Source of the DNA: Thermodesulfovibrionales bacterium
GTDB taxonomy: Bacteria; Nitrospirota; Thermodesulfovibrionia; Thermodesulfovibrionales; UBA9159
NCBI GenBank assembly: GCA_035686305.1
Contig: DASRZP010000063.1
Coordinates: 68,396-101,273, forward strand
DNA: 32,878 nucleotides
Direction of reading: 5' to 3'
Shown here: positions 7,079-32,470 of the stretch, in pieces
Position numbering within the stretch: position 1 is the stretch's first letter
How the letters are laid out: every line of letters starts with the position of its first letter
Translations under genes and position numbers: made by a program
Notes under the pieces: generated by a model
Databases searched by the model: none
What the model was told of the DNA's origin: nothing
Seen by the model: the letters and a program-made list of their open reading frames with translations, nothing else

Positions 7079-8089
7079 ATGAAAGTATTTCTTAAGATGG
7101 TCTTTGTACTGGCAGTTGTGTTGTCTTTCACCTCGGTGAATGCGGCGGAAACTCTTAACGGAGCAGGAGCATCATTCCCTTATCCGGTGTATTCTGCCTG
7201 GGCCTTTGACTATAACAAAGTAGCGGGAGTGCAGCTCAACTACCAGTCGATCGGCTCAGGTGGCGGTATCAAACAGATCACTGCGAGGACGGTCGATTTC
7301 GGAGCGTCCGATGCCCCTCTGACCACTGAAGAGTTGAACAAGGACGGTCTTCTTCAGTTTCCTGCGGTGATGGGGGGGGTTGTCCCCGTAGTGGCGATCC
7401 CTGGAGTGAAGGAGGGCCAACTCAGGCTCGATTCCGACGCGATTTGCAAGATCTACCTTGGGGATATAAAGCACTGGGATGACAGCAAGATCAAGTCCCT
7501 GAACCCTGGACTCAATCTGGCACATGATGAGATTACGGTCGTCCACAGGTCGGACGGTTCCGGAACAACCGCCATATTCACTACCTATCTGAGCGAACTC
7601 TGCCCTGACTGGAAGGATAAGGTCGGCGCCGGCACCTCGGTGAAATGGCCTGTCGGCATCGGCGGCAAAGGGAACGAGGGCGTTGCCAATTATACGAAGA
7701 GGACGCCGAACTCGATAGGATATGTCGAGTTTGCGTACGCGGAGCAGAATAAGCTCGCCTATGTGCTTCTCAAGAATCCTGCAGGCAATTTTGTGGAGCC
7801 CAATTTCAAAACCTTTGAGGATGCCGCGGCCACCGCCAATTTTGACCCCAAGAAACATTTTCATCTCTGGCTCGTCAACGCGCCCGGCAAGAACGCCTGG
7901 CCCATAGCCGGAGCAACCTTTATTCTCCTTGCGAAAGAAAAGACGGATTCCAATAAGAAAGTGGTCGCTTTTTACGACTGGGCTTTTAAGAACGGCGACA
8001 AGAAGGCGAATGAACTCGTTTACGTGCCCCTTCCAGCCTCTTTGAAAGACAAGATACGGGCTTACTGGAAGGCAAACGGTCTGCAATAG
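7079..8089 (+). CDS. pstS: Phosphate ABC transporter substrate-binding protein PstS
   Basis: This 336-aa periplasmic protein captures inorganic phosphate and delivers it to the PstC-PstA channel. A Sec signal peptide spans about residues 1-22 (basic MKVFLK, hydrophobic core, SVNAA cleavage region). The mature start LNGAGASFPYPVYSAW is the PstS signature for phosphate binding, and IGSGGGIKQ, DFGASDAPL and HRSDGSGTT form the other ligand loops. Length and order fit the family. The ATG has AAGGAGG five bases upstream. It heads pstSCAB-phoU and is preceded by two Pho-box-like promoters, so induction under phosphate limitation is expected. Confidence 0.98.
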   Translation: MKVFLKMVFVLAVVLSFTSVNAAETLNGAGASFPYPVYSAWAFDYNKVAGVQLNYQSIGSGGGIKQITARTVDFGASDAPLTTEELNKDGLLQFPAVMGGVVPVVAIPGVKEGQLRLDSDAICKIYLGDIKHWDDSKIKSLNPGLNLAHDEITVVHRSDGSGTTAIFTTYLSELCPDWKDKVGAGTSVKWPVGIGGKGNEGVANYTKRTPNSIGYVEFAYAEQNKLAYVLLKNPAGNFVEPNFKTFEDAAATANFDPKKHFHLWLVNAPGKNAWPIAGATFILLAKEKTDSNKKVVAFYDWAFKNGDKKANELVYVPLPASLKDKIRAYWKANGLQ

Positions 8090-8103
8090 ACTGCCGTATT
8101 GAA

Positions 8104-8136
8104 GGGAGGGCAGGTAAACCGGCCCTCCTTTTTTTC
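8104..8136 (+). terminator. Intrinsic terminator or attenuator between pstS and pstC
   Basis: GGAGGGC (8105-8111) pairs with GCCCTCC (8122-8128), extended inside by GGT/ACC, and is followed by seven T residues. It lies 15 bp after the pstS stop and before pstC. Partial termination here would give more pstS than transporter mRNA. Confidence 0.8.
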
Positions 8137-8174
8137 TTTCTGAGCATGGATTATAATAATACGTCGAGGATTAC

Positions 8175-9116
8175 ATGGCGACATCTGCAAAGAAGAATCC
8201 CATTGATACAATCTTTTCTCTTGTTACCGCAGCGGCATCGCTTACGGTAATCATTCTCATCATCGCCATCCTCTTTGAACTTTTTCGTGAATCGTCTCCT
8301 GCCATGGATAGATTCGGCGTCTGGAAATTCCTCTCTTCCACCGACTGGAACCCCGTCAAGGAATCATTCGGCGCTCTTACGAACATTTATGGAACGGTCC
8401 TTACGACGCTGCTGTCATTGGTGATGGCCATACCGGTTGCAATGGGCATCGCCATCTTCGTAACCGAGGTCTCACCCAATTTTCTGAAAGGGCCCATCGG
8501 GATTGGTATCGAGCTCCTGGCTGCAATACCGAGCATAATCTACGGCATGTGGGGCCTCTTCACGCTTTCTCCCATAATGAGCGGATACATTGAGCCCTTC
8601 CTGAAGAAGATTCTTGAAGGAGTGCCGATTGTCGGCGTCCTTTTTCAGGGGACCCCGATGGGGATCGACATACTGACCGCGAGCATAATCCTGAGCATTA
8701 TGATTATCCCCTTTACCGCGAGCATATCGAGAGACTCCTTTAATCTTACGCCTGCCGTTGTGAAGGAATCGGCATACGCCATCGGAGCAACGAAATGGGA
8801 GGTTGTGAAAGACGTTGTCATGCCTTATTCCAAACTTGGAGTATTTGGAGGCATTGTCCTCTCCCTCGGGAGGGCCCTCGGCGAGACCATGGCAGTCGCC
8901 TTTGTCCTCGGAAACAATCACAGAATTACGACATCGCTTTTTGACGCAGCCGCGACAATAACCGTCACCCTCGCCAATGAATTTGCCGAGGCAGATAAGG
9001 ACATATATCTCTCCTCCCTCTTCTATCTTGCATTGGTGCTCTTCATGATGAGTTTCATAACCCTCGCCATAGCCAAGTTCTTTCTCCTGAAAGCGGAAAG
9101 GAAATACTCGCGATGA
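8175..9116 (+). CDS. pstC: Phosphate ABC transporter permease PstC
   Basis: This 313-aa inner-membrane permease forms half of the phosphate channel. About six hydrophobic helices are visible, beginning at residues 17-38. The central motifs GIELLAAIPSIIYGMWGL and, near residue 235, SLGRALGETMAVAFVLGN (the permease EAA-type loop that contacts PstB) are typical of PstC. The ATG follows GAGGA by four bases. Its last bases overlap the pstA start as ATGA, indicating translational coupling. Confidence 0.97.
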   Translation: MATSAKKNPIDTIFSLVTAAASLTVIILIIAILFELFRESSPAMDRFGVWKFLSSTDWNPVKESFGALTNIYGTVLTTLLSLVMAIPVAMGIAIFVTEVSPNFLKGPIGIGIELLAAIPSIIYGMWGLFTLSPIMSGYIEPFLKKILEGVPIVGVLFQGTPMGIDILTASIILSIMIIPFTASISRDSFNLTPAVVKESAYAIGATKWEVVKDVVMPYSKLGVFGGIVLSLGRALGETMAVAFVLGNNHRITTSLFDAAATITVTLANEFAEADKDIYLSSLFYLALVLFMMSFITLAIAKFFLLKAERKYSR

Positions 9117-9952
9117 CGAGGGAACGATGGAGAAAAGCCGAAGGATTTTTCGCCCTTCTATTGAGCACCCTTGCCGCTTTCCTGGGCCTCTTCTGGCTTA
9201 TCTTCATTCTTGGCGACGTGCTTGTGCATGGAGTGAAGGCCCTCAATCTGGGTCTCTTCGTGAACGATCCGGTTCCCCCAGGAGTTGAGGGAGGCGGCTT
9301 GAGAAATGCCTTTACCGGACAGCTTCTCATAACCTTTTCTGCGACCCTGATCGGTGTGCCGATAGGAGTGCTCGGAGGCACATTCCTCGCAGAGTATGCG
9401 CGCGGTCACAGGATAGCCAGGCTCATCAGCGTTCTCGCCGACATCATGGTCAGTGTTCCATCCATTGTTATCGGCACCTTCATCTATGCTATTCTCGTCA
9501 AACCAATAGGTCATTTCAACGGCTGGGCAGGGGCAGTCGCGCTCTCGATCATCATGATCCCCGTCGTTCTCAGGACTACGGAGGATATGCTGTCCCTGGT
9601 GCCATGGACATTGCGGGAAGCGGCCTTTGCGTTGGGAGCCCCCTATTATACGGTGATAACGCAGGTGGTTTACCGGGGAGCGGCCACGGGCATCCTGACC
9701 GGTATCCTGCTTTCGATTGCCCGTGTTGCAGGAGAGACCGCTCCCCTGCTGTTTACGTCATTCAACAATGCATTTTTCTCGGTCGACATGAAGCAGCCTG
9801 TGGCCTCCCTGACGGTCACCATTTTTCAGTATGCCATGGGGCCTTATGAAAATTGGCATCAGCAGGCATGGGCTGCATCATTTGTCATTACCCTATTCAT
9901 CCTGCTCATCACAATCGCCGGACGGCTCATCATTAAATGGAGGTACAAATAG
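9113..9952 (+). CDS. pstA: Phosphate ABC transporter permease PstA
   Basis: The second permease of the phosphate channel, 279 aa, has about six membrane helices. [11 protein letters not shown] and the loop [17 protein letters not shown] are PstA signatures. It overlaps pstC by four bases and shares one base with the GTG start of pstB; its last codons also carry the GGAGG ribosome-binding site for pstB. Length is slightly short but within the family range. Confidence 0.97.
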
Positions 9953-10716
9953 TGCCTGAATCGATCGAACTCGAAGTCAAGGGACTCAATTTCTATTACG
10001 CAGGAGATATCGGCGCCTTGAAGAGCATAAGTCTCCCAATCTACAAGAATACTGTTACAGCATTGATCGGCCCTTCAGGATGCGGCAAGACGACCCTTCT
10101 TAGGTGCTTCAACCGCATGCATGACCTCTACCCGAAGAACAGATATGAAGGAGAGATCCTGTTCCAGGGAGAAAACATTCTTTCGAACGGGACGGACATC
10201 ATCAATCTGAGAAGCCGCATAGGAATGGTCTTTCAAAAGCCTACGCCATTCCCCATGAGCATCTTCGACAATATCGCCTACGGGTTGAAGCTCAAGGGAA
10301 TAACAAGGAGGGCAGAGCTTTCGGAACGAGTGGAGCGGGCGCTGAAACATTCTGTGCTCTGGGATGAGGTAAAAGACAAGCTCAGCGCCAGCGCCTATGA
10401 GCTTTCCGGCGGCCAGCAGCAACGGCTCGTTATTGCACGGGCCTTGGCGGTGAACCCTGAGGTTCTCCTTTTTGATGAGCCGACCTCAGCCCTCGATCCG
10501 ATCTCCACGGCCAAGATCGAAGAGTTGACGGACGTCCTCAAGAAGGATGTCACGATCGTTATCGTCACCCATAATATGCAGCAAGCCGCGAGGATTTCCG
10601 ACTGGGCAGGGTTTCTCATGCTCGGTGAACTCATAGAATTCGACAAGACCGACAGGATATTCACTGCGCCTTCGGAAAAGCTGACAGAAGACTATGTGAC
10701 GGGGAGGTTCGGATAA
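9952..10716 (+). CDS. pstB: Phosphate ABC transporter ATPase PstB
   Basis: The cytoplasmic ATPase that powers phosphate uptake. I place the start at GTG 9952 because GGAGG lies eight bases upstream; the in-frame ATG at 9937 lies inside pstA and has no ribosome-binding site. This gives 254 aa. Walker [11 protein letters not shown]-loop [13 protein letters not shown], signature LSGGQQQR, Walker [12 protein letters not shown] and the switch His in VTHNMQQA are all intact. The stop shares one base with the phoU start (TAATG). Confidence 0.97.
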
Positions 10717-11390
10717 TGACTATCTTTGATGATGAACTGCAGCAGCTCAAGGACAAGATCCTGAAAATGGGCTCTTTCGTTGAGGACGCCATAAGGAATT
10801 CGATTCGGGCCCTTGTGGAACGTGATAGTGAGCTAGCACGAAAGGTCATCGAGAATGACAGAATCGTCAATACCCTCGATGTTGAAATCGATGAAGAGTC
10901 CATCCGGCTCATTGCCTTGAGACAGCCGAAGGCGGGCGACCTGCGGTTCATCACGACCGCCATGAAGATAACCACAGACCTCGAACGGATGGGGGACATG
11001 GCAGTGAATATCGCCGAGAGGGCCCTCGAACTCAACGAGGAACCGCTCCTTAAGCCCTATATCGACATCCCCCGGATGAGCCAGATCGGACAGGGAATGA
11101 CAAAGGACGCCCTCGATGCCTTTGTGACGAAAAACAAGAAGCTGGCCATGGACGTCATCATGAGGGACGATGAAGTGGATGAACTGAAGCATCAGGTCCT
11201 CAATGAATTGCTGTTCTTCATGGTCCAGGACCCGTCTACAGCCTCACGGGCGATGAAGATCAGTTTCGTTGCCCAATACCTGGAACGGATTGCAGACCAT
11301 GCCACGAATATTTCAGAGATGGTGATCTACCTTGTCGAAGGGAAGATCATACGGCACATGATACCGCCCGTCGGTCACCATGAGGCATGA
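10716..11390 (+). CDS. phoU: Phosphate uptake regulator PhoU
   Basis: The 224-aa helical protein links PstSCAB activity to PhoR/PhoB signalling. Two PhoU repeats are visible, each with the E/D-rich metal-binding pattern: IALRQPKAGDLRFITTAMKI with DLERMGDMAVNIAE in the first half, and YLERIADHATNISEMVIY in the second. It is the last gene of the pst operon and starts within the pstB stop. No phoR or phoB lies in this window. The next gene is convergent; the 150 bp after phoU holds only short, weak palindromes and no clear terminator. Confidence 0.97.
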   Translation: MTIFDDELQQLKDKILKMGSFVEDAIRNSIRALVERDSELARKVIENDRIVNTLDVEIDEESIRLIALRQPKAGDLRFITTAMKITTDLERMGDMAVNIAERALELNEEPLLKPYIDIPRMSQIGQGMTKDALDAFVTKNKKLAMDVIMRDDEVDELKHQVLNELLFFMVQDPSTASRAMKISFVAQYLERIADHATNISEMVIYLVEGKIIRHMIPPVGHHEA

Positions 11391-20228: not shown

Positions 20229-23200
20229 TCATTTCTCGCTTAATGTGCCTATAAACTTCACAACCTCCAACTTGGTATCCAGTTCCGCTGCCTCTCCATA
20301 TCTCAGCAGTGTTCGATAGGTGGAAGGCAGGAGCGGTACCCCTTCCCGCATGTTACGCTCACGCGCCCTGAGTTCGGCCTCACCGGGGATAAGGATCTCA
20401 TGCGCATTTTGTGCGAGCTCTCCCGACTTTGTCTGCTCGATCATACGATCGACTCGTGCCATAAATTCGGCTGAAGACATGAAGAGTTCGGGGTCGATCA
20501 CCATAAAAAAATGGCCGAAGTCTGGTGGCCTCAAGTCCTTGTACATCTGTTCTCGGCTATGGTCATGGCAGAAGCCCGCCCCGCTCAGAACACCTGCCAT
20601 CGCCTCCATGACGAGCGCGAGACCATATCCTTTATGCCCCCCGATTGGCACACCAAGGCCAGCTGCGAGATCGGCCGGATCTGTTGAGGGACGACCAAAA
20701 TGATCGAGGATCCACCCCGGCGGTAACATTTTACCTTCAGCAAGTTGCAAGCCGATCTTTCCTCGTGGCGCAACACTCATCGCGATGTCCAGGAGAATCG
20801 GGTTGTAACGCGACGCTGGAATACCCACACCCAGCGGGTTGTTCCCGAATGTTGGAGTGACCCCACCGGTAGGCGCAAGGATCACCGGGCCGTTCGTAGT
20901 GCAGAGCCCTATCAGACCTTGCTGTACGGCGAGCCAGACATAATGTGCGGCAGCTCCAAAGTGGTTGGAGCGACGTGCACTTACTATGCTCATACCCGCC
21001 TGCTTTGCTTTTTGAATCGCCGTTCGCATAGCAATAACCCCAACCCACTGCCCGGGGCCGTTGTCTCCATCAATCCGCGCACTGATTGATGTCTCATGCT
21101 CTATCCGGATCCGGGGTTGTGGATTCGTCACGCCCGAACTGATACGCCGGGCATAACGGGGGATGCTGTCCATATTGTGCGTTCGTTGCCCGCGCAGGCT
21201 GGCCTCAAGCTGAACTTCTGTGACAATCGCAGCCCCTTCAGGCGACAAACCGGCCCTTTCCAACGCCTCACGGCCATAGGCCCGCAGGCTTTCCGCTGTC
21301 ACAAGGACCAAAGGCTTTACCGCGTCCTTCGCCATTGTTTCCTCAGGCTGAACCGAAGCGGTCGCCGTCTTCGGCTCGGTCCGTACATTGTGTGCGTTTT
21401 CAGAAATCCTCGCCAGTTCAATAACCGTCTGGTACTGGAAAAGCTCCTTAAGGGTAAGCTGCAACCCTCCCCGATTTGCGAGGCTGATTACTTGAATACT
21501 CAGAAGAGAATCCCCTCCCAATTCAAAGAAGTTATCCTCAATGCCTACACGGTCCACATTCAGAACCTGCCTCCATATGTCTGCCAGTGTCTTCTCGGCA
21601 TGGGTTCGCGGTTCGATAAATGCCCCTAAAAGTTCTTGCCGTGCCCTCTCGGGGTTGGCACAAACTGAGCCTGCCGCCAGGGCGGAAAGGGCTTTTCGAT
21701 CCAACTTCCCATTCGGTGTCAGCGGTAATGCCTTAAGTGCCACAATCATGGATGGAACCATATAACCCGGTAGCGAGCGCTTCAGAGACTCTCTCAATTC
21801 TACTATCACCCGCTTAGGAATCCGCAACACTTCTTTCGGAACTTCAGAAGCAATGGCATGATGAACACTCTCTCTAGGGACAACAAAGGCCACCAATTTT
21901 TGATTGCCTCCAGTGGCCGGCATACCACTCTTTACCATCACGCGGGTACCCTCCCCCGCTACCTCACCGGGAGTAATGACTGCGCTTTCACCCACCCACG
22001 GATGTTTTCGTAAGGCTGCTTCAATTTCCCCTGGTTGGATAAGGAAGCCGCGTAGTTTGATTTGAGAATCGTAGCGGCCGATGAGCACAATGTTTCCATC
22101 CGGCAGATAACGCGCCGTGTCACCGGTCCGGAAGAGTCGGGCTCCAGGGGCATCACTAAAGGGGTCAGACACGAACCGCTCCGCTGTCAGTTCCTGCTGG
22201 TTGAGGTACCCCCGGCCCACTCCAGCTCCACCGATATATACCTCGCCATAGACGCCGACTGGCACAAGCTGTCGGAGGGCGTCCAGGATATATACTCGCG
22301 TATTCTCAATCGGACGACCGATGGGGACGCCATTTGCGGCTTCAGCGCCAGGGTGATGGATATGATACATGCTCACGATACCCGTCGTTTCGGTCAGCCC
22401 ATACATGTTGATCAACTTCGCACCGCTTCGAAAGCAGGACGCCCACTCCGCTGGGATATCCGGGGACAGCGTTTCACTGGCGGAAAGGATCAGCCTCAGT
22501 CTACTGTTGAATGCAGCTGCCCTTGCGTCAGGCGCCAGACGACGCGCCATTTGAATACAGCTACGCCAGTACGACGGAACGACATCAAGAATCGACACGT
22601 GATGTTCACGAATGAGATCAAACAGAACTAAGTGGTCATGGATTTGATCGGTTGTGGCTATGACCACTGCTGCGCCGCAAGAGAGAGGGAGTAAAAATTG
22701 GCGAATGGATGAGGAGAATGCGAATGAGGCAGTGTGGAGATATCGATCCTCAACCATAATTCCTAACGCCTCACGCATTGCATGGACATAATGGCAAAGG
22801 TTGGCATGCGTGATCATCACACCCTTGGGGGAGCCTATTGAACCTGAGGTATAGATAACATATGCTAAATTCGTTTCTGTCGCACTGCTTTCAGGGTTTT
22901 GTTTGCTCTTTCCGTCAATAGCTTGGCAACCCGCTTCCAGACACACCAGTATCGGGGGGACGGGCTCTGAACCTTCGATTTCAGATTCCTTCTGACCAGA
23001 CACCCAAGGCGAAGTCCCGGGTCTGGCATTCAAGGCGGAAAACAGATGCTCTCCCGTGATAAGAACCGATACCTTGGCATCCCTCATCATAAAGACAAGA
23101 CGCTCTGACGGGTATTCTGGATCAAGGGGAAGGAAAGCACCTCCGGCCTTTAATACCCCCAGTATGGCCATCGCCATCTCCGCAGAGCGGGGAAGGATGA

Positions 23201-26200
23201 TCCCCACCAGTTTTTCTGGCCCCACTCCGAGTTTCTTGAGGTGCCAAGCCAGTTGGTTGGCTCTGCTATTCAGCTCGTCGTACGTGAACCTCTCATCTCC
23301 ACATTCGACTGCCAAGGCATTTGGTGTCTTGGACACCTGGTCTTCAAACACGTGATGGAGACAGAGATCGAAGCGATATGAATTTTCCGTGCGATTCCAC
23401 TCAACCGCCTGCTGGCGTCTCTCTGTGTCATCAAGTAACGGAAACTCCGAGAGACGCCTCTCGGGGTTGGCAACAATCCCTTCCAAAAGTACCTTGAAAT
23501 GCCTTGCAACCCGCTCGATTGTGTCCGCCTCGAACAGGTCGATATTGTATTTCCACAACCCCTCCAGCCCTTGCTTGGTTTCCGCAAGGTACAGGGTCAG
23601 GTCGAACTTCGCGGTTCCGCTAACTGTTCTGAAAGGATGGGCACTCAAACCCGGCGCAAGTTGAAACGGCAGTCCGGTCGTCCATATATCGTCCGACTGC
23701 TTAACCTCTCGTATCTCATTTTCTGTGGTTTCTGACCCAATCCCTATGTCAGGAAGATTCTGGAAGGCGAACATCACCTGGAATAAGGGTCCATGGCTCG
23801 GATCCCGCTCGGGCTGCAGCACCTCCACCACTTTTTCAAATGGCAGATCCTGGTGCGCGTATGCGCCCATGGCTGTTATACGCACCCGAGCCAGCAGCTC
23901 TCGGAATAAGGGATTTCCGGACAGATCATTTCTCATAACCAGCGTGTTCGCAAAGAACCCTATCAAAGGCTCTGTCTCGACACAAGGCCGGTTGGCGATC
24001 GGGACGCCTACTGGGAGATCGCTTTGCCCCGTGTAACGGAAAAGCAAGGTTTGGAATGCTGCCAGCAACGTCATGAAGAGTGTCGCTTTTTCACTCACGC
24101 TCAACGCCTTCAGCCCCTCGGTCACAGTGCGAGAGACTGTCAATTGGAGTGTCCCTCCTCGATACGTCTGCAAAGATGGACGAGGGCGGTCGGTAGGCAT
24201 CCCAATCACAGGAGGAACATTCTGGAGCTTCTCCTTCCAGTAGGCAATCTGCTTTTCTAAGACCTCTCCTTGTAGCCACCCTCTCTGCCAGACCGCAAAA
24301 TCACCGTATTGGACGGCCAGTTCCGGGAGCGGCGACTCGCAGCCTGACAGAAATGCCTCATAGAGCATTGCCAGTTCCCGGTGCAGCACTCTCATGGACC
24401 AGCCATCTGAAATGATGTGGTGCATTGTAAGTAAGAGAATGTGCTCTTCAGCGTCCAGCCCGATGAGTGCAGTCCGAAATAGAGGCCCGTGAGCAAGATC
24501 GAATGGCCGGCTGACCTCCTCGGCCCCCAGACGAAGCGCTTCGGCCTTCCGGTCGGAAGGTGGCAGCATCGTCAAATCCGTGATCGGTAGTTTTGTTGTC
24601 TCTTCTTTGACAATGACCTGTACAGGCTGCCCGCCGACCAAATGAAATGTGGTACGCAATATTTCGTGTCGGCGTCGGATTTCGTTAAGACTTTGCTCCA
24701 GTGCATCTTTGTTCAACCTGCCTTTGAGCCATAGTGAGGCGGACATGTTATAGGCGATGTTGCCGTGCTCGAACTGTTCAAGGAACCACAGCCGATGCTG
24801 AGCGAAAGAGAGAGGTAAAGGGCCTGTCATGCGCCTCCGTGGGATGCTCGCTGCTCTGGCGCTGGATAGTGTTTCTCTCGAAGATCGCTGGTCACACAGT
24901 ATGTACCCTTGGGATAAATGACCGGTCGTGCTTCGGGTGATCAGCTTCGCCAGTTGGGCAATGGTAGGATTTTTGAAAAAACTCTCCACAGGCAGGTCGA
25001 CCTGGAATTCGTCCCGCAGCCGGACGACAACTTGGCTCGCAGCCAATGAGTGGCCGCCCAAGAGGAAAAAATTATCGTGAATACCAGGGCAGTCGATTTT
25101 CAGGACACCGGCCCAGATATTTACCAACCTCTGCTCAATAAGCGAACGCAGAGGTTCAGGATCACAATGTTCTGGTTTCTGTTGGGCATTCAACTCCGTC
25201 AGACGTAGTTGCCGAGCAAGATTGGCACGCTCCAGTTTCCCTGTAGGACCCTTCGGGATGTCATCCACGATTACTACGTGATCCGGGACTTTGAAATAGG
25301 CAAGGTGCGTCGCGACAAAGCTGCGGATCTCCTGAATCAGATGATCGGGCTGGTCTGCTCTAATGCCCGAATACCCAAAGACTTGAAAATCCGGCTTAAG
25401 AACTACCGCAGCAGCGACGTTCTCGCCGAGCACGGGATGGGGGACCTTAAAGGTGACGGCCTGTGAAACTGCCGGGTGGTCCATCAGAACCTGGTCCACT
25501 TCCCTCGGTGAGATCTTCTCACCTCCCCGGTTGATTATCTCCTTGAGACTGCCGGTGACGAAAAGATAGCCATCCATATCCATGTATCCTATGTCTCCGG
25601 TACGGAACCATCCGTTGACAAAAGCGTCCTGCTTGGCCATGGTATCGTTTCCAGGGGACTGTGCAACGTTTGCACCACGGATCACGATCTCTCCTGGCTC
25701 TCCCGGCGGCATAATATTCCCCAACTCGTCCCAAATGGCGACCGCGGGTCCCGCGGCTCGACCTACTGAACCGGCCTTGCGCGGATGAGGGGGCAGCCGG
25801 TTACTCGCAATTTGAGGGGACGCTTCGGTCATCCCATACGCTTCAATAAACGGCGCACGGAACAGCCGCTCCAATTCAACCATCACAGGCAAAGGCATTG
25901 CTGCGGAGGCTGAACGAATAAAACGCAACTTGGCGCGCGCTGTGATCTCGGGATAGTGAAATGCGTTTTCGAGAATTATCTGGTGTATCGTCGGTGCTGC
26001 TGAATACCACGTTGGATGAAAAGAATCAAGACACTCGAAAAACTGCGCAGCGGAAAAGCCGGAGGGGTAGACCACACTCGCACCCGCTGCAAGTGAAGCA
26101 AAGAGCGTGCTCAGACCGTGGATGTGAAACAACGGCATCACACTGAGACAACGGTCGCTCTCCGTCAGCTGAACCGCAGCGCAGATGTTGTGTGCAGCGA

Positions 26201-26828
26201 CGCAAATGTTCTGGTGCGTCAGCCTCACTCGCTTTGGTCGAGCAGCAGTTCCTGACGTGTAAAGCGCCAGCGCCGCATCGTCCGGCTGGGACAAGCCATG
26301 CGTTATTGGAGCTGATACACTCCGACCGGCAAGGGTGAAGAGACCTGCCTCAGCTTCGGCCTGCGGAATCAATTCGAGAACGGGCACGCCTCGCGATCGG
26401 GCTACCGCCGCCGCAGTAGCCTCATAGCCTTGCAATACGATCAACGCTCTTGCATTTAAATCTCCGAGATAGAAGTCCATTTCGCTCGCGCGATAGGCGG
26501 GGTTAAGAGGTGCGCATACAGCGCCTGATGTAATAGCAACAGAGGCCACAGCCATCTCCGGCCCATCCGGAATCACCATTGCGACACAGTCCTCCCTACT
26601 CACACTCAGGGAATGAAGCGCCTCGAGAACGTACTCCACTTGGCGGCTCAAACGGCCGTAAGTCAGAGGTCTTCTTCCCGGGGCAAGGATGAAACTGGCG
26701 TTGGGGTTTCGCTCGGCCTGTTCGCGAACCAGCTGAAGGAGACAGTACTGCCGGGCCGGATCCCCCATTTGGACAGGATCAGCGTTCATAGTTCGCTCCC
26801 GCCTCTTCATTGCTCGCGCGTGCTGCAT
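20229..26828 (-). CDS. NRPS: A(acyl-CoA-synthetase-like)-PCP-C-A-PCP fused to a malate/lactate dehydrogenase-2 family reductase
   Basis: This 2199-aa megasynthase has six domains. (1) Adenylation 25-545 resembles oxalyl-CoA synthetase (AAE3) with YGMTEASPQ (331-339), TGDIGY and Lys531; its P-loop reads SGTAARPKR, slightly degenerate. (2) PCP 560-635, Ser594 in GGHSL. (3) Condensation 668-1115, LCL-like, with intact HHIISDG (803-809). (4) Adenylation 1158-1715 with YTSGSIGSPKG and Lys1708; the Asp that binds amino groups is Ser1372. (5) PCP 1735-1812, Ser1774. (6) Residues 1840-2185 form a whole Ldh_2 (AllD/YlbC-like) NAD(P)H reductase: SNHFG with His1956, TFGNNPLG, LLDIAMS and GGHKGYGLA. The ATG at 26828 has GGAGGAG upstream, inside the previous gene's end; ATG 26789 is an alternative start. 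No MbtH or carrier-activating transferase gene is near. Product unknown. Confidence 0.95.
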   Translation of the reverse strand: MQHARAMKRRERTMNADPVQMGDPARQYCLLQLVREQAERNPNASFILAPGRRPLTYGRLSRQVEYVLEALHSLSVSREDCVAMVIPDGPEMAVASVAITSGAVCAPLNPAYRASEMDFYLGDLNARALIVLQGYEATAAAVARSRGVPVLELIPQAEAEAGLFTLAGRSVSAPITHGLSQPDDAALALYTSGTAARPKRVRLTHQNICVAAHNICAAVQLTESDRCLSVMPLFHIHGLSTLFASLAAGASVVYPSGFSAAQFFECLDSFHPTWYSAAPTIHQIILENAFHYPEITARAKLRFIRSASAAMPLPVMVELERLFRAPFIEAYGMTEASPQIASNRLPPHPRKAGSVGRAAGPAVAIWDELGNIMPPGEPGEIVIRGANVAQSPGNDTMAKQDAFVNGWFRTGDIGYMDMDGYLFVTGSLKEIINRGGEKISPREVDQVLMDHPAVSQAVTFKVPHPVLGENVAAAVVLKPDFQVFGYSGIRADQPDHLIQEIRSFVATHLAYFKVPDHVVIVDDIPKGPTGKLERANLARQLRLTELNAQQKPEHCDPEPLRSLIEQRLVNIWAGVLKIDCPGIHDNFFLLGGHSLAASQVVVRLRDEFQVDLPVESFFKNPTIAQLAKLITRSTTGHLSQGYILCDQRSSRETLSSARAASIPRRRMTGPLPLSFAQHRLWFLEQFEHGNIAYNMSASLWLKGRLNKDALEQSLNEIRRRHEILRTTFHLVGGQPVQVIVKEETTKLPITDLTMLPPSDRKAEALRLGAEEVSRPFDLAHGPLFRTALIGLDAEEHILLLTMHHIISDGWSMRVLHRELAMLYEAFLSGCESPLPELAVQYGDFAVWQRGWLQGEVLEKQIAYWKEKLQNVPPVIGMPTDRPRPSLQTYRGGTLQLTVSRTVTEGLKALSVSEKATLFMTLLAAFQTLLFRYTGQSDLPVGVPIANRPCVETEPLIGFFANTLVMRNDLSGNPLFRELLARVRITAMGAYAHQDLPFEKVVEVLQPERDPSHGPLFQVMFAFQNLPDIGIGSETTENEIREVKQSDDIWTTGLPFQLAPGLSAHPFRTVSGTAKFDLTLYLAETKQGLEGLWKYNIDLFEADTIERVARHFKVLLEGIVANPERRLSEFPLLDDTERRQQAVEWNRTENSYRFDLCLHHVFEDQVSKTPNALAVECGDERFTYDELNSRANQLAWHLKKLGVGPEKLVGIILPRSAEMAMAILGVLKAGGAFLPLDPEYPSERLVFMMRDAKVSVLITGEHLFSALNARPGTSPWVSGQKESEIEGSEPVPPILVCLEAGCQAIDGKSKQNPESSATETNLAYVIYTSGSIGSPKGVMITHANLCHYVHAMREALGIMVEDRYLHTASFAFSSSIRQFLLPLSCGAAVVIATTDQIHDHLVLFDLIREHHVSILDVVPSYWRSCIQMARRLAPDARAAAFNSRLRLILSASETLSPDIPAEWASCFRSGAKLINMYGLTETTGIVSMYHIHHPGAEAANGVPIGRPIENTRVYILDALRQLVPVGVYGEVYIGGAGVGRGYLNQQELTAERFVSDPFSDAPGARLFRTGDTARYLPDGNIVLIGRYDSQIKLRGFLIQPGEIEAALRKHPWVGESAVITPGEVAGEGTRVMVKSGMPATGGNQKLVAFVVPRESVHHAIASEVPKEVLRIPKRVIVELRESLKRSLPGYMVPSMIVALKALPLTPNGKLDRKALSALAAGSVCANPERARQELLGAFIEPRTHAEKTLADIWRQVLNVDRVGIEDNFFELGGDSLLSIQVISLANRGGLQLTLKELFQYQTVIELARISENAHNVRTEPKTATASVQPEETMAKDAVKPLVLVTAESLRAYGREALERAGLSPEGAAIVTEVQLEASLRGQRTHNMDSIPRYARRISSGVTNPQPRIRIEHETSISARIDGDNGPGQWVGVIAMRTAIQKAKQAGMSIVSARRSNHFGAAAHYVWLAVQQGLIGLCTTNGPVILAPTGGVTPTFGNNPLGVGIPASRYNPILLDIAMSVAPRGKIGLQLAEGKMLPPGWILDHFGRPSTDPADLAAGLGVPIGGHKGYGLALVMEAMAGVLSGAGFCHDHSREQMYKDLRPPDFGHFFMVIDPELFMSSAEFMARVDRMIEQTKSGELAQNAHEILIPGEAELRARERNMREGVPLLPSTYRTLLRYGEAAELDTKLEVVKFIGTLSEK
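21333..21344 (-). promoter_or_regulatory. Internal in-frame ATG with ribosome-binding-like site before the Ldh_2 domain
   Basis: Inside the NRPS gene, codon 1832 is an ATG (21335-21333) with GAGG five bases upstream. It lies exactly in the linker between the last PCP and the reductase domain. It could start a free reductase of 368 aa, about the usual size of stand-alone Ldh_2 enzymes, or be a relic of a gene fusion. Confidence 0.3.
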
Positions 26829-26831
26829 AGA

Positions 26832-29800
26832 TCACTCCTCCGGCATCCGCCCAACGGTCTGTGGGGACGAGACGCAGATGTCAACCAGCGCAGAACGGCC
26901 GCGCCGCACTTCGCTGAGCGCCTCACGGAGTACCGACCTGAGTTTTGCAGGATCGTCCACTGTCCTGGCCCACAGACCCATTGCTTCTGCCATTTTTGAA
27001 TAGAGTGGCGGCTTTGGCAGATCGCATCCCGGATAGTTCCCTGTCCGCCTCGCGTATCCGTCAGGAGCTATGCCCAGGATCGCTTCGGTGGTGGCAGCAT
27101 ATGCCTGATTATTGAAGACAATCGTCAGGAACGGGCTTCGGGACTGCTCGGCTGCCCAGTAGGCTGCGAGGGGAGAACCGAATATCCAGGAGCCGTCTCC
27201 TAAAGTGCAGATGATGGTTTTGGAGGGGGATGCAAGCTTGGCTCCAAAGGCTGCTCCAAGGCCCCAACCAAGGCCGGACCCGAGGCTTTGATAGTAAGTT
27301 CCGGGCGTGTCCAACTGCAAATAACGCCACAGGACTTGGTTGTTACTGACAGCTTCGCTGACGATTACCGTGTCCTCATCCACAATCTCGCTCAAGCAGT
27401 ACGCAGCCCATTCAGGCGCGATCGGCTGTCGCGCCGCCAGACCGAAAGCTCTCTTCTGCCACCTCGCCCTTTGCGCCTGGTGTTGGGCGGTCAGGACATG
27501 GCGGCGTCTTTCAATCCGTGTGCGATCTGCACGGCTCAGCAACCGCTCGACCTCCTCGGCCAAGGCCGACATGGCATGGGACGAGTCGGCCTGAATGGCA
27601 AGATCCACTGGGAATCCCCAGATTGGAATATCCCGTTTGAGAGGGTCAATGTCCACATGGATTATGCGGCATGCAGACGGTGGTCTATATTGCGCTGGCA
27701 CCCATGGAACGTCGTGATCGACGATCAGAACGCAGTCAGCTCGGTGCAAATGGGAACCGGCCGAAAAACCGAGATGAAGAGGGTGACCAGAAGGAAAATT
27801 GACTCGGTGGCGCGACTCCACTACTGGTGCAGCCAGCGTCTCCGCGAGTCTAACCAGAGAGGCAGCAGCCTTGGGATTACGGCCCGCATAGGCTACAAGA
27901 ATCAAAGGTCTATCGGCCTCGATCAGCCACTTTGCTGCCCGGGAGAGGCTGTCAGGGTCAACCGCCAGCGTCGAAATCGCCGGCGCACGATTGGCATCAA
28001 CAATAGGGGTTTGCACGGTCTGCACAAGCACTTCCCTGGGGAGAGTCAAATATACCGGCCCAGCTGGCTCCGTCCGGGCTACCTGGAACGCACGCTGCAC
28101 CGCTAAGTGAAGGTTTTCCCGGCAGGTCAGCTCGTAATGCCATTTAACATAACCGTGCACAATGCTCTCCTGGCTGAACTGCTCTTGTATCCAGTGGATA
28201 TAGCTATCACGCCCACCTGGGAGACTGCCATCAACGGTGTACGGGGCCCTCCCCGCACAGACGACTACTCCGGCGCGGCCCCGCTGTGCGTTATGCAGGT
28301 TTGCGCCGATGTTCTGGGTCCCTACGTCAACGTGAACTAGGACTACCTGGGGCCTACCGCTGACCATGAAGTAGCCATGCGCGGCGGCCATAGCCACGGA
28401 CTCGTGTAGACAGAGGATCAGTTCGGGCGACCGGCGCCCCTGGACTTTAAACTTTGCAATGGATTCCTGGATCGGCACAGTGTCGGTCCCGGGATTGATA
28501 AAGATGTAGTCGACAGCGCAAGCGTTCAGCGACTCGAGATACCCGTCGGCTACGTTGTCAACCCCAGGCGGCTGTTGTATTCCCAGGTTGAGATGCTGAA
28601 GTTCTGCATGGCTGTCCTCCGTTGACATGGTCTTGATCTCCTTGAGTTCTCTGTTGATTTTCTCTGCCAGCATCCTCACATGCGGTTCTTTCAAAATACT
28701 CATATGATGTCCCGGAATGGACTGGATTCCCACACACTCTGCAACGCTACTCCATTCCATATCCTCGCAGGACGGAATTAACCGCTGAGCTCTTGCCCGA
28801 TAAAGGGTAATACGGCCGGGATATTTTTGAGGGGTATATCTTCTCAGCCACCGAATTATTTCCCGTAAGTTATCTATCGATTCTTCAGATACCTCGGTAG
28901 GGTTATAGGGTTTGCGGAGAAAAGTCTTTTTCATTTTATTGTTGGCAATCGTCCAATAATGGCTCAGCCAGAAGGGGAGCGTGTAATATAACCACCAAGG
29001 AAGGTTTCTCGCAAAGGCCCTTATCATTGCCGCTTCCCATGGTTTTGGTTTCTCCTTGGAACGATCCGGGCAAGAAGTATCAAGAATTCCGAGGAAGAGG
29101 ACATTAAGGTTCATCATCTGAAGCTGCCTCGCCATCTCAAATGCCACAAGTCCACCGGATGAAAACCCGATCAGCATGAAAGGTCCATTAGGTATTTTCC
29201 CGCGTAATTCACTGACATACTGAAATGCTATTTCTTCTATGGACCGACAAAGTACATCTTCAGCACCCTCTAACCCGTAGACCGGTTGGTCCGGATCCAG
29301 GTATTTTGCAAGGTGACGATAGATTAACGTGCTACCCATGACATCAGCCACGCAAAAAAGCGGAGGGTTAGACCCCTTTGGCTGTATGGAAACCAGGGAG
29401 GATTGAGACTCCGGTTCTTGATAATTGGTGATTACGGCGGCAAGCTTTTCTACAGTGGGCGACTGAAAAATAGCAGAAAGAGGAATCCTTATCCCAAATT
29501 CTCTTTCTATCCTTCTGAAGAGCTGAACGACCATAAGAGAATGACCACCCATATCAAAGAACGAGTCTTCAATGCCCACGGTATCAATTTGGAGCAGCTC
29601 AGCCCAGATTCCCGCCAAGACCTCCTCAATCGCATCACGCGGAGCGACAAACGGGCGAGCAAGTGTCGGTCGTGTGCGCCACGGGCGGCTGGCGGTGAAG
29701 TGGGCAGCGAGCGCCGCATGATCGACCTTGCCGCTTGGCGCACGCGGGAACTTCTCCCGCATTACGAAGACAGAAGGGATCATGTGCTCAGGCAGTGTCT

Positions 29801-31412
29801 CAGAAAGAGAGCGCCTGAGATCGCTGACGGTTGGTGCTGGCAGACGAGCTGGCACGAGGTAGGCTACGAGACGCTTCTCCTCGGGTTCCGTTATCTGCTC
29901 GTGATTTCCCGTCTCGCCACTCCCTGTGGGTGTCAAGTTGTCGCTTTTGGCGTGGAGATGAAACCGCCCGGAAGGGTTATCCTCTACCGTCCCCAGCGCA
30001 AGAACAACTGCCTCTGTGAAGGTGCCCAAGTTGAGCAGGGCAGTTTCCACCTCAATTGGTTCGATCCGGTGCCCACGGACCTTCACCTGGAAGTCCTTCC
30101 TTCCCAGGTAGAAGAGACAGCCGTCTGAGCGCATCCGTCCCATATCCCCTGAGAGATAGATTCGCGCCTCTCCGCCGTTCGGATCGGGCAGGAATCGCTT
30201 CCGGGTCAATTCGGGTTGGCGCCAGTAGCCTAGTGAGAGGTAGCGGCTCTTGACAGCAATCTCCCCGACCTCGCCGGGACCGACCTTCTGTCCGTTCTCG
30301 TTGAGCAAGAAGATCTCTGTCCCTTCAGTTGGGTAGCCGACCGGAATAAGCGCGTCGGTGAACTGGGTTTGTTTATCGATGAAATAATGGCAGTCACTCC
30401 CCGTTTCCGTCGCGGCCAGATTAATCAGCATCAGGCATTGGGGTGAAAGATACCGGCGGTAAAGCTCAACATCGCTTCGGTAGACCGGTTCCCCTCCAAA
30501 GGTCACCAGGCGGAGCCGGGGGAACTGATCTTCCCCGGTGAGAGAATGTCTCCAATCTCGCAGAAGCCGCCGCCCATTGCTGATCGTGATCTCTTCTTGC
30601 TCAAACCACCGGGGCAGGTCTTCCAGTCCCACCGTCCGCAAATCCAATGGATGGAGCGACGCACCGTTCAGCAGAGCGGGGAAAATTCTCCGCAGTGATG
30701 CGCTAGAGCTACAGGGGTGTAACAGAGCCAGTCGATCATCCCGGCAAACATGGAAGCTGTTCGTAACCCGTAAGACTTCGAACAAAAGGTTTCGGTGGTT
30801 CTGGAGGACTCCCTTAGGGGTTCCTGTCGAACCCGAGGTATAGATAATGTTAACACCATAATCGGGTGAAATCGCAATAGCCGGATTCGTGGAGGAGTAA
30901 TGAGAACTCGGCGTGTGTAGATTGATCCTTGGGATCTTTCGTGGCGTTAGTTCAGCTGCGGCAGACATATTCCGGGAGTCGGTGAGAATGAGGCTGGTCT
31001 GGGAATCCTCGATTATGTAGGAAAGACGAGGCCGTGGAAACCGGGGATCGAGAGGCACATATATCTTCCCTGCCTTCAACACCCCCATTATTGCAGCTAC
31101 TACCCATGCACCCTGATCCAGTAACAACGCAACCGGTTCCTCGCCTTCGCCGTATTGTTCCAGAATGGCGTCCGCGATCCGGTTAGCTGCCTTGTTCAGC
31201 TCGGCGTACGTGAAACTGCGGTCATGACTTCGAACGGCAAGCCGGTCAGGGTATCGCAGCACCTGTTGCTCGAAGCGAGACGGGATTGACTGCTTGATAT
31301 CCTCTAGGTCAAAGGGCTCAAAGTTATTCGTCGGTGTTACCAGTCGGGCCCTCTTCACTGGAGTGATATCGGAACCACTTGGGATGTCTAATTCTCTCCT
31401 TGCTGATTCCAA
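26832..31412 (-). CDS. NRPS-like A-PCP-TE protein fused to an acetolactate-synthase-like ThDP enzyme
   Basis: The 1526-aa protein has four parts. Adenylation 45-570: YTSGSTGTPKG (191-201), LAATETG, GRKDFQVKVRGHR and Lys562; the amino-group-binding Asp is replaced by Ser237. PCP 590-665, Ser625 in GGHSL. Thioesterase 682-930: Ser751 in GFSSG, Asp778 and His903. Then 940-1520 is a complete ThDP-dependent enzyme of the acetolactate synthase / benzoylformate decarboxylase type, with catalytic Glu1004 in LCLHESVA and the cofactor motif GDG-x26-NN (1405-1435). There is no condensation domain. The start codon is TTG (31412) with no strong ribosome-binding site, so the exact N-terminus is uncertain. 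Gene 2 of the operon follows after 3 bp. Fungal A-PCP-TE enzymes such as TdiA and AtrA use 2-oxo acids; the fused ThDP enzyme fits such substrates. Confidence 0.95.
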   Translation of the reverse strand: MESARRELDIPSGSDITPVKRARLVTPTNNFEPFDLEDIKQSIPSRFEQQVLRYPDRLAVRSHDRSFTYAELNKAANRIADAILEQYGEGEEPVALLLDQGAWVVAAIMGVLKAGKIYVPLDPRFPRPRLSYIIEDSQTSLILTDSRNMSAAAELTPRKIPRINLHTPSSHYSSTNPAIAISPDYGVNIIYTSGSTGTPKGVLQNHRNLLFEVLRVTNSFHVCRDDRLALLHPCSSSASLRRIFPALLNGASLHPLDLRTVGLEDLPRWFEQEEITISNGRRLLRDWRHSLTGEDQFPRLRLVTFGGEPVYRSDVELYRRYLSPQCLMLINLAATETGSDCHYFIDKQTQFTDALIPVGYPTEGTEIFLLNENGQKVGPGEVGEIAVKSRYLSLGYWRQPELTRKRFLPDPNGGEARIYLSGDMGRMRSDGCLFYLGRKDFQVKVRGHRIEPIEVETALLNLGTFTEAVVLALGTVEDNPSGRFHLHAKSDNLTPTGSGETGNHEQITEPEEKRLVAYLVPARLPAPTVSDLRRSLSETLPEHMIPSVFVMREKFPRAPSGKVDHAALAAHFTASRPWRTRPTLARPFVAPRDAIEEVLAGIWAELLQIDTVGIEDSFFDMGGHSLMVVQLFRRIEREFGIRIPLSAIFQSPTVEKLAAVITNYQEPESQSSLVSIQPKGSNPPLFCVADVMGSTLIYRHLAKYLDPDQPVYGLEGAEDVLCRSIEEIAFQYVSELRGKIPNGPFMLIGFSSGGLVAFEMARQLQMMNLNVLFLGILDTSCPDRSKEKPKPWEAAMIRAFARNLPWWLYYTLPFWLSHYWTIANNKMKKTFLRKPYNPTEVSEESIDNLREIIRWLRRYTPQKYPGRITLYRARAQRLIPSCEDMEWSSVAECVGIQSIPGHHMSILKEPHVRMLAEKINRELKEIKTMSTEDSHAELQHLNLGIQQPPGVDNVADGYLESLNACAVDYIFINPGTDTVPIQESIAKFKVQGRRSPELILCLHESVAMAAAHGYFMVSGRPQVVLVHVDVGTQNIGANLHNAQRGRAGVVVCAGRAPYTVDGSLPGGRDSYIHWIQEQFSQESIVHGYVKWHYELTCRENLHLAVQRAFQVARTEPAGPVYLTLPREVLVQTVQTPIVDANRAPAISTLAVDPDSLSRAAKWLIEADRPLILVAYAGRNPKAAASLVRLAETLAAPVVESRHRVNFPSGHPLHLGFSAGSHLHRADCVLIVDHDVPWVPAQYRPPSACRIIHVDIDPLKRDIPIWGFPVDLAIQADSSHAMSALAEEVERLLSRADRTRIERRRHVLTAQHQAQRARWQKRAFGLAARQPIAPEWAAYCLSEIVDEDTVIVSEAVSNNQVLWRYLQLDTPGTYYQSLGSGLGWGLGAAFGAKLASPSKTIICTLGDGSWIFGSPLAAYWAAEQSRSPFLTIVFNNQAYAATTEAILGIAPDGYARRTGNYPGCDLPKPPLYSKMAEAMGLWARTVDDPAKLRSVLREALSEVRRGRSALVDICVSSPQTVGRMPEE
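28626..28643 (-). promoter_or_regulatory. Internal in-frame ATG with strong ribosome-binding site before the ThDP domain
   Basis: Codon 929 is an ATG (28628-28626) with AAGGAG (28643-28638) nine bases upstream. It lies in the linker after the thioesterase. Translation from here would give a free 598-aa ThDP enzyme, the normal length of stand-alone relatives. Confidence 0.4.
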
Positions 31413-31464: not shown

Positions 31465-31494
31465 ATTATAGAGTGAATAGTTGGGATATTGCAA
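31465..31494 (-). promoter_or_regulatory. Sigma70-type promoter of the NRPS operon
   Basis: On the minus strand, TTGCAA (31494-31489) and a perfect TATAAT (31470-31465) are separated by 18 bp. The expected start lies near 31458, giving a leader of about 46 nt before the TTG start codon at 31412. Confidence 0.75.
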
Positions 31495-31765: not shown

Positions 31766-32470
31766 TCATACAATCTTCAGTATCTCCATTACTGCTTTCT
31801 GGCAGTTCTCTGCCGCGAGCGGGATATTCCATTTGTCCCTGTCCCGGTCCTCCACGATATTGCTGATGCCCCGTATCTCGAGCATCGGGACTCCATACAA
31901 AGCGCAGATCTGTGCAACGGCAGCGCCTTCCATGTTCTCGCAGATGGCATGGTACTTCTTCTTGAGTTCGACGGCACGTCTCCTTGTCCCAGTGCATGTA
32001 GAGGTCGTAATGAAGGTGCCGGACTTGATGGGTGCAATACGCCCGCCAATCTTCAAAACTCTTTTCAGAAGTCTCTTGTCGAGCAAAAATTCATTGAAGA
32101 AGGTCTTCCTCCCCTTTCTTAGGAGCGGGATACCGACGAACTCGGTTCCATGGAAGCCATAACCTGTCTGAACCCCCTCATCGCCGTAAACCTCTTTTTC
32201 AGCGACTGCCACGTCACCAACCTCAAGTCCAGCGGAGGGATAGGCGCCTCCGATGCCGAAGAGGATTATGATATCAGGTGAGAATTCTTCGATCAGGATT
32301 GTTGCCGCATGTGCCGCGTTTGTCTTTCCCATGCCGGAGATGATATACGCGGTTTCTCTTAATCCGATGGTACCTCTGTAGAGTGTTCTGCCTGAAAGGG
32401 TCCTCTTTTTCCTAATGCGGTCAACGAGTACCTTCCCTTCTTCGAGGACTGATGATATAAGCCCAAGCAT
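31766..32470 (-). CDS. mqnB: Futalosine hydrolase MqnB
   Basis: The 234-aa enzyme of the purine-nucleoside phosphorylase fold removes hypoxanthine from futalosine in menaquinone synthesis. FGIGGAYPSAGLEVGDVAVAE with EVYGDEGV, and ENMEGAAVAQICALYGVP with the following RGISNIVEDRD, are typical of MqnB and distinguish it from MTA/SAH nucleosidases. It starts 21 bp after the proA stop and is probably co-transcribed with it. An MTA/SAH nucleosidase identity is the main alternative, less likely given mqnD in the same window. Confidence 0.88.
   Translation of the reverse strand: MLGLISSVLEEGKVLVDRIRKKRTLSGRTLYRGTIGLRETAYIISGMGKTNAAHAATILIEEFSPDIIILFGIGGAYPSAGLEVGDVAVAEKEVYGDEGVQTGYGFHGTEFVGIPLLRKGRKTFFNEFLLDKRLLKRVLKIGGRIAPIKSGTFITTSTCTGTRRRAVELKKKYHAICENMEGAAVAQICALYGVPMLEIRGISNIVEDRDRDKWNIPLAAENCQKAVMEILKIV

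Follow-up and report, generated by a model that had tools for sequence, protein, structure and literature searches.

A domains that activate alpha-amino acids carry an Asp at position 235, and several described systems depart from this. In the known 2-oxo-acid (quinone/furanone) enzymes the first residue of the A-domain code is reported to be Val (PMC10316625), and in known keto-acid A domains residue 235 is reported to be aliphatic (PMC10949194). A loading module of Pseudanabaena galeata has Ser235, and a hydroxy acid is proposed there as its substrate (PMC11356792, section 3.2). Two further systems bear on the locus described here. ObaH, of the obafluorin pathway, is a separate ThDP phenylpyruvate decarboxylase, and the assay described in PMC5490192 gave an aldehyde and no acyloin. 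In the Ldh_2 family of dehydrogenases two His residues are invariant; Arg48 of AllD contacts the carboxylate of glyoxylate and the R48A variant is inactive, although Arg48 is not conserved through the entire superfamily (PMC3527362).

P0002 and P0001 are two adjacent open reading frames on the minus strand of a 32,878-nt stretch of DNA (the window), which forms the end of a 101-kb contig of a Thermodesulfovibrionales bacterium. The region studied consists of these two genes. P0002 (positions 26832..31412, gene 1 of the first-pass annotation) encodes 1526 aa with the domain order A-T-TE-ThDP, as displayed by the open reading frame and by Pfam and motif scans. The frame is listed from a TTG and its start codon is uncertain. 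P0001 (20229..26828, gene 2) starts 3 nt past P0002 and encodes 2199 aa, with the order A1-T-C-A2-T-Ldh_2. All domains are on the minus strand. Pfam and motif scans place the T (carrier) domain of P0002 at 29430..29621 (GGHS) and its TE domain at 28650..29363 (GFSSG). In P0001 the same scans place the first T domain at 24939..25133 (GGHS), the C domain at 23412..24818 and the second T domain at 21405..21596 (GGDS, with approximate ends). The three carrier Ser motifs, the HHIISDG (HHxxxDG) of the C domain, the TE Ser and the ThDP motifs are all intact. The domain scan of P0001 detected no TE after Ldh_2.

A promoter-like sequence, TTGCAA-18-TATAAT, is found on the minus strand at 31465..31494, about 50 nt 5′ of the listed TTG of P0002; it is a consensus match only, and two such matches are observed in the region where 0.8 are expected. 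Directly upstream of P0002, about 350 nt away and in the same direction, is a gene for futalosine hydrolase (MqnB; window positions 31766-32470). Positions 7079-11390 of the window encode a phosphate-type ABC transporter set, consisting of a binding protein, two permeases, an ATPase and PhoU.

The two canonical A domains are that of P0002 (29703..31274) and A2 of P0001 (21684..23348). E. coli K-12 EntF, aligned by MAFFT, was used as the ruler for numbering. The Asp of the EntF FDVSVWE segment aligns with a Ser in both domains, and the EntF Trp with an Arg. The A4 core of the P0002 domain is SSASLRRIF (30681..30707; Ser235, Ala236, Arg239) and that of A2 is FSSSIRQFL (22692..22718; Ser235, Ser236, Arg239). 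An alignment of 250 A domains gives the same placement, and in HMMER alignments to the solved LgrA the Ser columns of both domains are opposite the Asp of FDGS. The first-pass annotation had read Asp235 as changed to Ser and Trp239 to Arg in these two cores; this is confirmed by the three alignments, with the coordinates correct and no Asp at position 235 in either domain.

Pocket codes (positions 235, 236, 239, 278, 299, 301, 322, 330 and 331) were taken from the alignment blocks by visual inspection. With a one-residue gap ambiguity at positions 330/331, the code is S A R N T G L/gap S D for the P0002 domain and S S R D L A M G I for A2. Each domain thus has an acidic residue elsewhere in the pocket, Asp331 in P0002 and Asp278 in A2. 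The P0002 domain has LAATE in place of the A5 motif YGPTE. The Lys517 motif is intact in both (PSGKVD, PNGKLD), as are the core adenylation motifs (a YTSGS..G.PKG-type loop and GR.D). Both domains therefore lack the Asp235 of alpha-amino-acid A domains and keep the Lys517 and core motifs of an A domain.

Of the 250 A domains, 215 have Asp235, one has a gap and 34 have another residue. Because the loci were collected as sequence matches of P0002 and A2, domains without Asp are over-represented, and the fraction gives no population estimate. These 34 comprise 20 domains of the P0002 clade described below, three of the A2 clade, five acyl-CoA-ligase-like domains including A1, four with FVDSV and two single cases. 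Three loci (L042, L044 and L045) have A domains with FVDSVW at A4, in which the Asp has moved one place; we take this to be the beta-alanine code. Two other A domains (L013:359-4888 and L029:397-4155) keep Asp235 and have Arg239, with a code that is Ser-like at the remaining positions (D V R H F A/S L); their substrate is perhaps an acidic serine analogue.

A coupling of Arg239 to the loss of Asp235 was considered. Arg239 is present in 12 of 29 non-Asp domains and in 4 of 213 domains with Asp (Fisher p 1e-9; 242 of the 250 rows, after removal of seven acyl-CoA-ligase/fatty-acyl-AMP-ligase-like rows and one gapped row). These raw counts are strong, but the coupling is unsupported once the tree is considered, as it has only four independent pairs, for which a sign test gives p 0.5.

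A lineage tree was made from 98 of the 250 A domains with columns 235 and 239 excluded. The P0002 A domain is in a clade of 25 domains (SH-aLRT 100), 20 of which are without Asp235. The clade spans several phyla and consists mostly of stand-alone A-T, loading or A-T-TE units. A-T-TE members are L003-L010, A-T-C loading members are L030 (Moorena) and L031 (Nostoc), and stand-alone A-T members are L011, L012, L026, L029, L036 and L060; L020 is a C-A-T-C module. L011 (G000:C33) and L012 (G000:C105) are further genes in the window's own genome, and a gene for an FkbM-type methyltransferase (L012:2583-3386) is beside the A-T gene of the latter. Beside another A-T-TE gene, in genome G006, there are a LarA-like lactate racemase and a PLP-dependent PALP-family enzyme (L166:6939-9501), which hints at a supply of 2-hydroxy acid or amino acid for that clade member.

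The clade also includes A-T-TE proteins of about 890 aa (family f4) from the same order as the window genome. In L160-L165 these have the A4 sequence FAASVPN, without Asp235, and their pocket residues are nearly invariant. A gene of about 249 aa is located 3′ of the A-T-TE gene in all six loci compared. It is an Sfp-type PPTase in L160 by Pfam, and the other five match the L160 gene by BLAST. By these sequence criteria, A-T-TE plus PPTase is a conserved small pathway. The window's own genome has a candidate Sfp-type PPTase as well (C34:12892-13203, a 249-aa frame).

A2 is found in a different part of the tree. It groups with the loading A domain L074 of Pseudanabaena sp. SR411 (FSSSVR) and with L063, an A-T-TE of Anaerolineales; SH-aLRT support for this trio is 97 in the 98-row tree and 75 in a 36-row tree. 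None of the A2-like loci of the phylum (L108-L136) is among the non-Asp domains of the 250-domain alignment. When both window A domains were placed in a single clade (36 of the 250 domains), the likelihood fell by 201 log units, with p-AU 2.7e-7. A common origin of Ser235/Arg239 in the two domains is thus ruled out. They are 31% identical, and nearly all other pocket positions differ. The shared change had at first been read as suggesting that the two domains use related substrates; with separate lineages and differing pocket residues, related substrates could arise only by convergence.

The loss of Asp235 from otherwise intact A domains, and its recurrence among the stand-alone, loading and A-T-TE members of one clade, fit acids without an alpha-amino group, and it is likely from these sequence features that both canonical A domains activate such acids. 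A-T, A-T-C loading and A-T-TE members fit non-amino acids because such units need no nucleophile. Some clade members, such as the C-A-T-C module L020, follow a C domain, where a nucleophile would be expected, and these count against a non-amino acid. Both window domains have Ser at position 235, in place of the Val or aliphatic residue of known keto-acid A domains of the TdiA/RalA/StsA type, which would be a point against the loading of a 2-oxo acid. The A1 domain of surfactin synthetase, with the code DAKDLGVV, is assigned to Glu/Asp (PMC10548584). Since Arg, Asp and Leu at positions 239, 278 and 299 of A2 resemble its Lys, Asp and Leu, one guess by analogy is that the substrate of A2 is a des-amino acid bearing another acidic group.

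The Ldh_2 domain of P0001 (20307..21302, malate/L-lactate dehydrogenase type) covers positions 1-332 of the 333 in the Pfam model. An alignment ruled on AllD shows that it retains His44, Tyr52, His116, Pro158, Asp174, Lys224, Met251 and Gly306, and thus both family His residues including the catalytic one. The changes are Arg48 to Ser, Ser140 to Gly, Asp141 to Pro, Thr156 to Asn and Arg259 to Pro. An Arg is present at the Arg48 site in AllD, in malate dehydrogenase 1v9n, in sulfolactate dehydrogenase 2x06 and in seven of the nine homologues that cover the site. Among solved structures the domain matches 1v9n (3e-61) and 2x06 (2e-58). A carrier-fused copy that acts on a thioester would be expected to lose its carboxylate clamp; this fit, although indirect, is the best argument for reduction in cis by Ldh_2. 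The loss of the Arg alone is weak evidence, since two of the nine homologues are likewise without it and positions 140 and 141 vary widely.

The ThDP domain of P0002 (26868..28562) scores above the NCBIfam cut-off for PRK08327 (673 vs 456 bits), and its nearest solved enzyme is benzoylformate decarboxylase (1e-37). It keeps Glu47 and His70, has a Thr for Ser26 and displays no counterpart of His281, these four being presumably the catalytic places of the benzoylformate decarboxylase type. From this homology the domain likely decarboxylates or carboligates a free 2-oxo acid.

A1 of P0001 (25194..26771) is positioned as a loading A domain. Its best solved match is oxalyl-CoA synthetase (AAE3 5ie0; 6qjz) with an E-value of 4.9e-108, and the next non-oxalyl enzyme is at 2e-52; by homology the oxalyl-CoA-synthetase-like character of A1 is real. 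The ThDP, Ldh_2 and oxalyl-CoA-synthetase-like domains named in the first-pass annotation are all confirmed by domain scans and homology. In A1, PKG has become PKR, the conserved GR has become GS, and a conserved pocket His, at the site that we take to be the oxalate-binding His319 of AAE3, has become Pro. Of three aligned A1 relatives, those on contig C38 of the window's genome (L013) and in genome G213 (L168) retain both the GR and the His, while the one in G081 retains the GR without the His. These differences imply that A1 has changed its specificity or lost activity. As important-looking residues are gone, the first P0001 carrier may depend on an enzyme in trans for its acyl group, or may stay unloaded.

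The window's genome has a paralogous cluster, L013 (G000:C38:1-9433), whose A-T is 49% identical to A1-T. It also encodes a ThDP enzyme that is nearest to 2-hydroxyacyl-CoA lyase/oxalyl-CoA decarboxylase (3e-90), and a lyase (KRCGH) nearest to petal death protein (3.5e-37) and oxaloacetate acetylhydrolase (9e-33); neither passes an NCBIfam cut-off. A C-A-T protein of the cluster has a tail that is ATP-grasp-looking by eye and has no Pfam match. Close kinship of the C38 ThDP enzyme with the P0002 ThDP domain is ruled out, as they are only 24% identical and so belong to different subfamilies. A cluster in G213, of the same class (L168; G213:C44:1-15000), combines an oxalyl-CoA-synthetase-like A-T, a two-module NRPS protein and an ICL/PEP-mutase-like lyase similar to the C38 lyase. 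The A domain in its C-A-T-C is in the P0002 clade, with the A4 sequence VHGSVR and no Asp235. The pattern in C38 and G213, both outside the window, hints that starter units may be supplied by oxalate chemistry, and C38 itself suggests a putative oxalate- or formyl-fed NRPS starter.

A tentative scheme, which we favour while holding it somewhat short of probable, is that P0001 and P0002 form an NRPS-type line in which both canonical A domains load non-amino acids, Ldh_2 reduces a carrier-bound 2-oxoacyl group, and the C domain forms an ester. A2 would load a 2-oxo acid onto the second carrier of P0001; this acid would probably be 2-oxoglutarate-like, with Arg239 holding its additional acidic group. 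Ldh_2 would reduce the 2-oxoacyl thioester on the carrier to a 2-hydroxyacyl thioester, and by doing so would fill the role of the inserted ketoreductase in depsipeptide modules. The C domain would then esterify the hydroxyl of the 2-hydroxyacyl unit with the acyl group carried by the first T domain. P0002 would activate another non-amino acid, and its TE, the sole release domain, may serve both proteins. The ThDP domain would most likely decarboxylate or ligate a free 2-oxo acid, so that a building block is made or trimmed.

C-A2-T-Ldh_2 has an A domain without Asp235, a C domain and an in-cis reductase, as expected of a depsipeptide module. An SDR-type ketoreductase inside the A domain is absent, and the only reductase is the Ldh_2 after the carrier. 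Of the products first proposed for this locus (depsipeptide, furanone, quinone or acyloin), a depsipeptide-like ester is favoured as the class that fits the domain order best. A broader proposal, for which we would claim rather little likelihood, is an oxalate- and 2-oxo-acid-fed NRPS lineage in which a carrier-fused Ldh_2 makes ester links and oxalyl or formyl starters are formed from oxaloacetate on the line. The last part is drawn from C38, where the A-T is paired with the oxaloacetate-hydrolase-like lyase and the oxalyl-CoA-decarboxylase-like ThDP enzyme.

Other explanations may be weighed against this scheme. The A domains could be specific for amino acids with the amine outside the alpha position (an aminobenzoate, or a beta- or omega-amino acid), with the relocated Asp278 of A2 or Asp331 of P0002 binding the amine. 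The one acidic pocket residue retained by each domain agrees with this, as do the Asp-shifted FVDSVW domains in the sample and an EntE N235S variant that binds 2-aminobenzoate (cited in PMC11356792). Neither window domain has an Asp at position 236, however, Asp331 is present in the Ser-specific EntF too, and the fused 2-hydroxy-acid-type dehydrogenase would have no explanation; we judge this reading unlikely. P0002 could instead be a bacterial counterpart of RalA and TdiA, a quinone/furanone synthetase that dimerises an aryl 2-oxo acid by Claisen-type chemistry, with P0001 as a separate line. The A-T-TE order, the missing Asp235 and a 2-oxo-acid ThDP enzyme in P0002 itself speak for this. The first code residue is Ser, though, and not the Val described for the 2-oxo-acid enzymes in PMC10316625, Arg239 and Asp331 are ill-suited to an aromatic side chain, and many members of the P0002 clade are A-T or A-T-C without a TE. 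This reading of P0002 is improbable.

A decaying line, with A1 inactive and the other pocket changes due to drift, would account for the three changes in A1, of which the GR and His sites are largely kept in its relatives, and the assembly is fragmented. Against decay are open frames of 2199 and 1526 codons with intact carrier Ser, HHxxxDG, TE Ser and ThDP motifs. In addition, Ser235/Arg239 or a similar non-Asp/Arg239 pair recurs in relatives of each A domain, which argues that the pocket changes are not drift within the window's genome. Decay is considered a poor candidate, about on a level with the quinone/furanone synthetase. Finally, Ldh_2 might be a cyclic-imine reductase (DpkA-like), with A2 loading an unusual cyclic imino acid such as a pyrroline-2-carboxylate. 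The Pfam family is shared, and delta1-piperideine-2-carboxylate reductase 1wtj is among the Ldh_2 matches (7.7e-37), but 1v9n and 2x06 score far better, and Arg239 and Asp278 of A2 would be unexplained. This is the least credible of the alternatives and appears very unlikely. Taken together, the earlier interpretation of the locus is partly supported: non-amino acids are likely, substrates related by descent are rejected, and an ester of depsipeptide type is favoured.

Genome searches were made for both fusions. Of 395 genomes of the phylum, the window's own is the only one with P0002 at full length. Among 230 genomes of the class, ten have Ldh_2 matches, all in separate proteins with frames of 396 aa or less except that of the window; ThDP matches at E 1e-60 are found in one of the 230, the window's own. 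In 72,556 plasmids, none of 353 records matching P0002 and none of 243 matching A2-T-Ldh_2 cover 80% of the sequence. The P0002 and A2-T-Ldh_2 fusions are thus without counterpart in the sets searched, which were 395 phylum genomes for P0002, 230 class genomes for each end domain and 72,556 plasmids. Among the papers searched, none names Ldh_2 together with NRPS.

If the proposed scheme is correct, ester-forming lines have evolved a reductase other than the usual ketoreductase, i.e. a second, non-homologous answer to the ketoreductase of depsipeptide modules. It would also mean that the Asp for amino acids disappeared from A domains on more than one occasion, with Arg239 arising in both window domains. 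The oxalate proposal, for its part, would bring an added starter unit to the NRPS repertoire. The P0002-type clade, with its A-T, A-T-C and A-T-TE members in several phyla, points to substrates beyond the present prediction codes, and it includes small single-domain proteins.

Comparison with known systems shows similarities and differences for each domain. A1 has a clear nearest sequence in oxalyl-CoA synthetase; unlike the plant enzyme, it serves a carrier domain, and several residues kept in the plant enzyme are missing from it. The P0001 Ldh_2 is full-length and shares both family His residues and the NADH-site Asp and Lys with ureidoglycolate, malate and sulfolactate dehydrogenases; it differs from them in being fused to an NRPS and in having Ser for the carboxylate-binding Arg. 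ObaH of obafluorin is a published parallel for the ThDP domain, as a separate enzyme there and fused in P0002. P0002 has the A-T-TE start and the lack of Asp235 in common with the quinone/furanone synthetases TdiA, RalA, AtrA and PpaA1, but has Ser and not Val, a fused ThDP domain and a partner gene with a C domain. A2 has Ser235 in common with module 1 of P. galeata OA858_03905, as described in PMC11356792. The L074 loading A domain of Pseudanabaena sp. SR411 is like A2 in having Ser235, Arg239 and Asp278, and also in its motifs, which read FSSSVRQ, DxVxSxWR and YGQTET. The Pseudanabaena domain is a loading module in A-T-C-A-T-TE, whereas A2 has a C domain before it and a fused Ldh_2 behind it. 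StsA is not named among the best 60 solved-structure matches of the window A domains. Cereulide is another depsipeptide system having modules with an inserted ketoreductase. The depsipeptide modules of StsA and of hectoramide HcaB are like C-A2-T-Ldh_2 in having a non-amino-acid A domain, an in-cis reductase near the carrier and an ester-forming C domain. In modules of the StsA/HcaB type the ketoreductase is inserted and residue 235 is aliphatic, whereas in P0001 an Ldh_2 domain follows the carrier and residue 235 is Ser.
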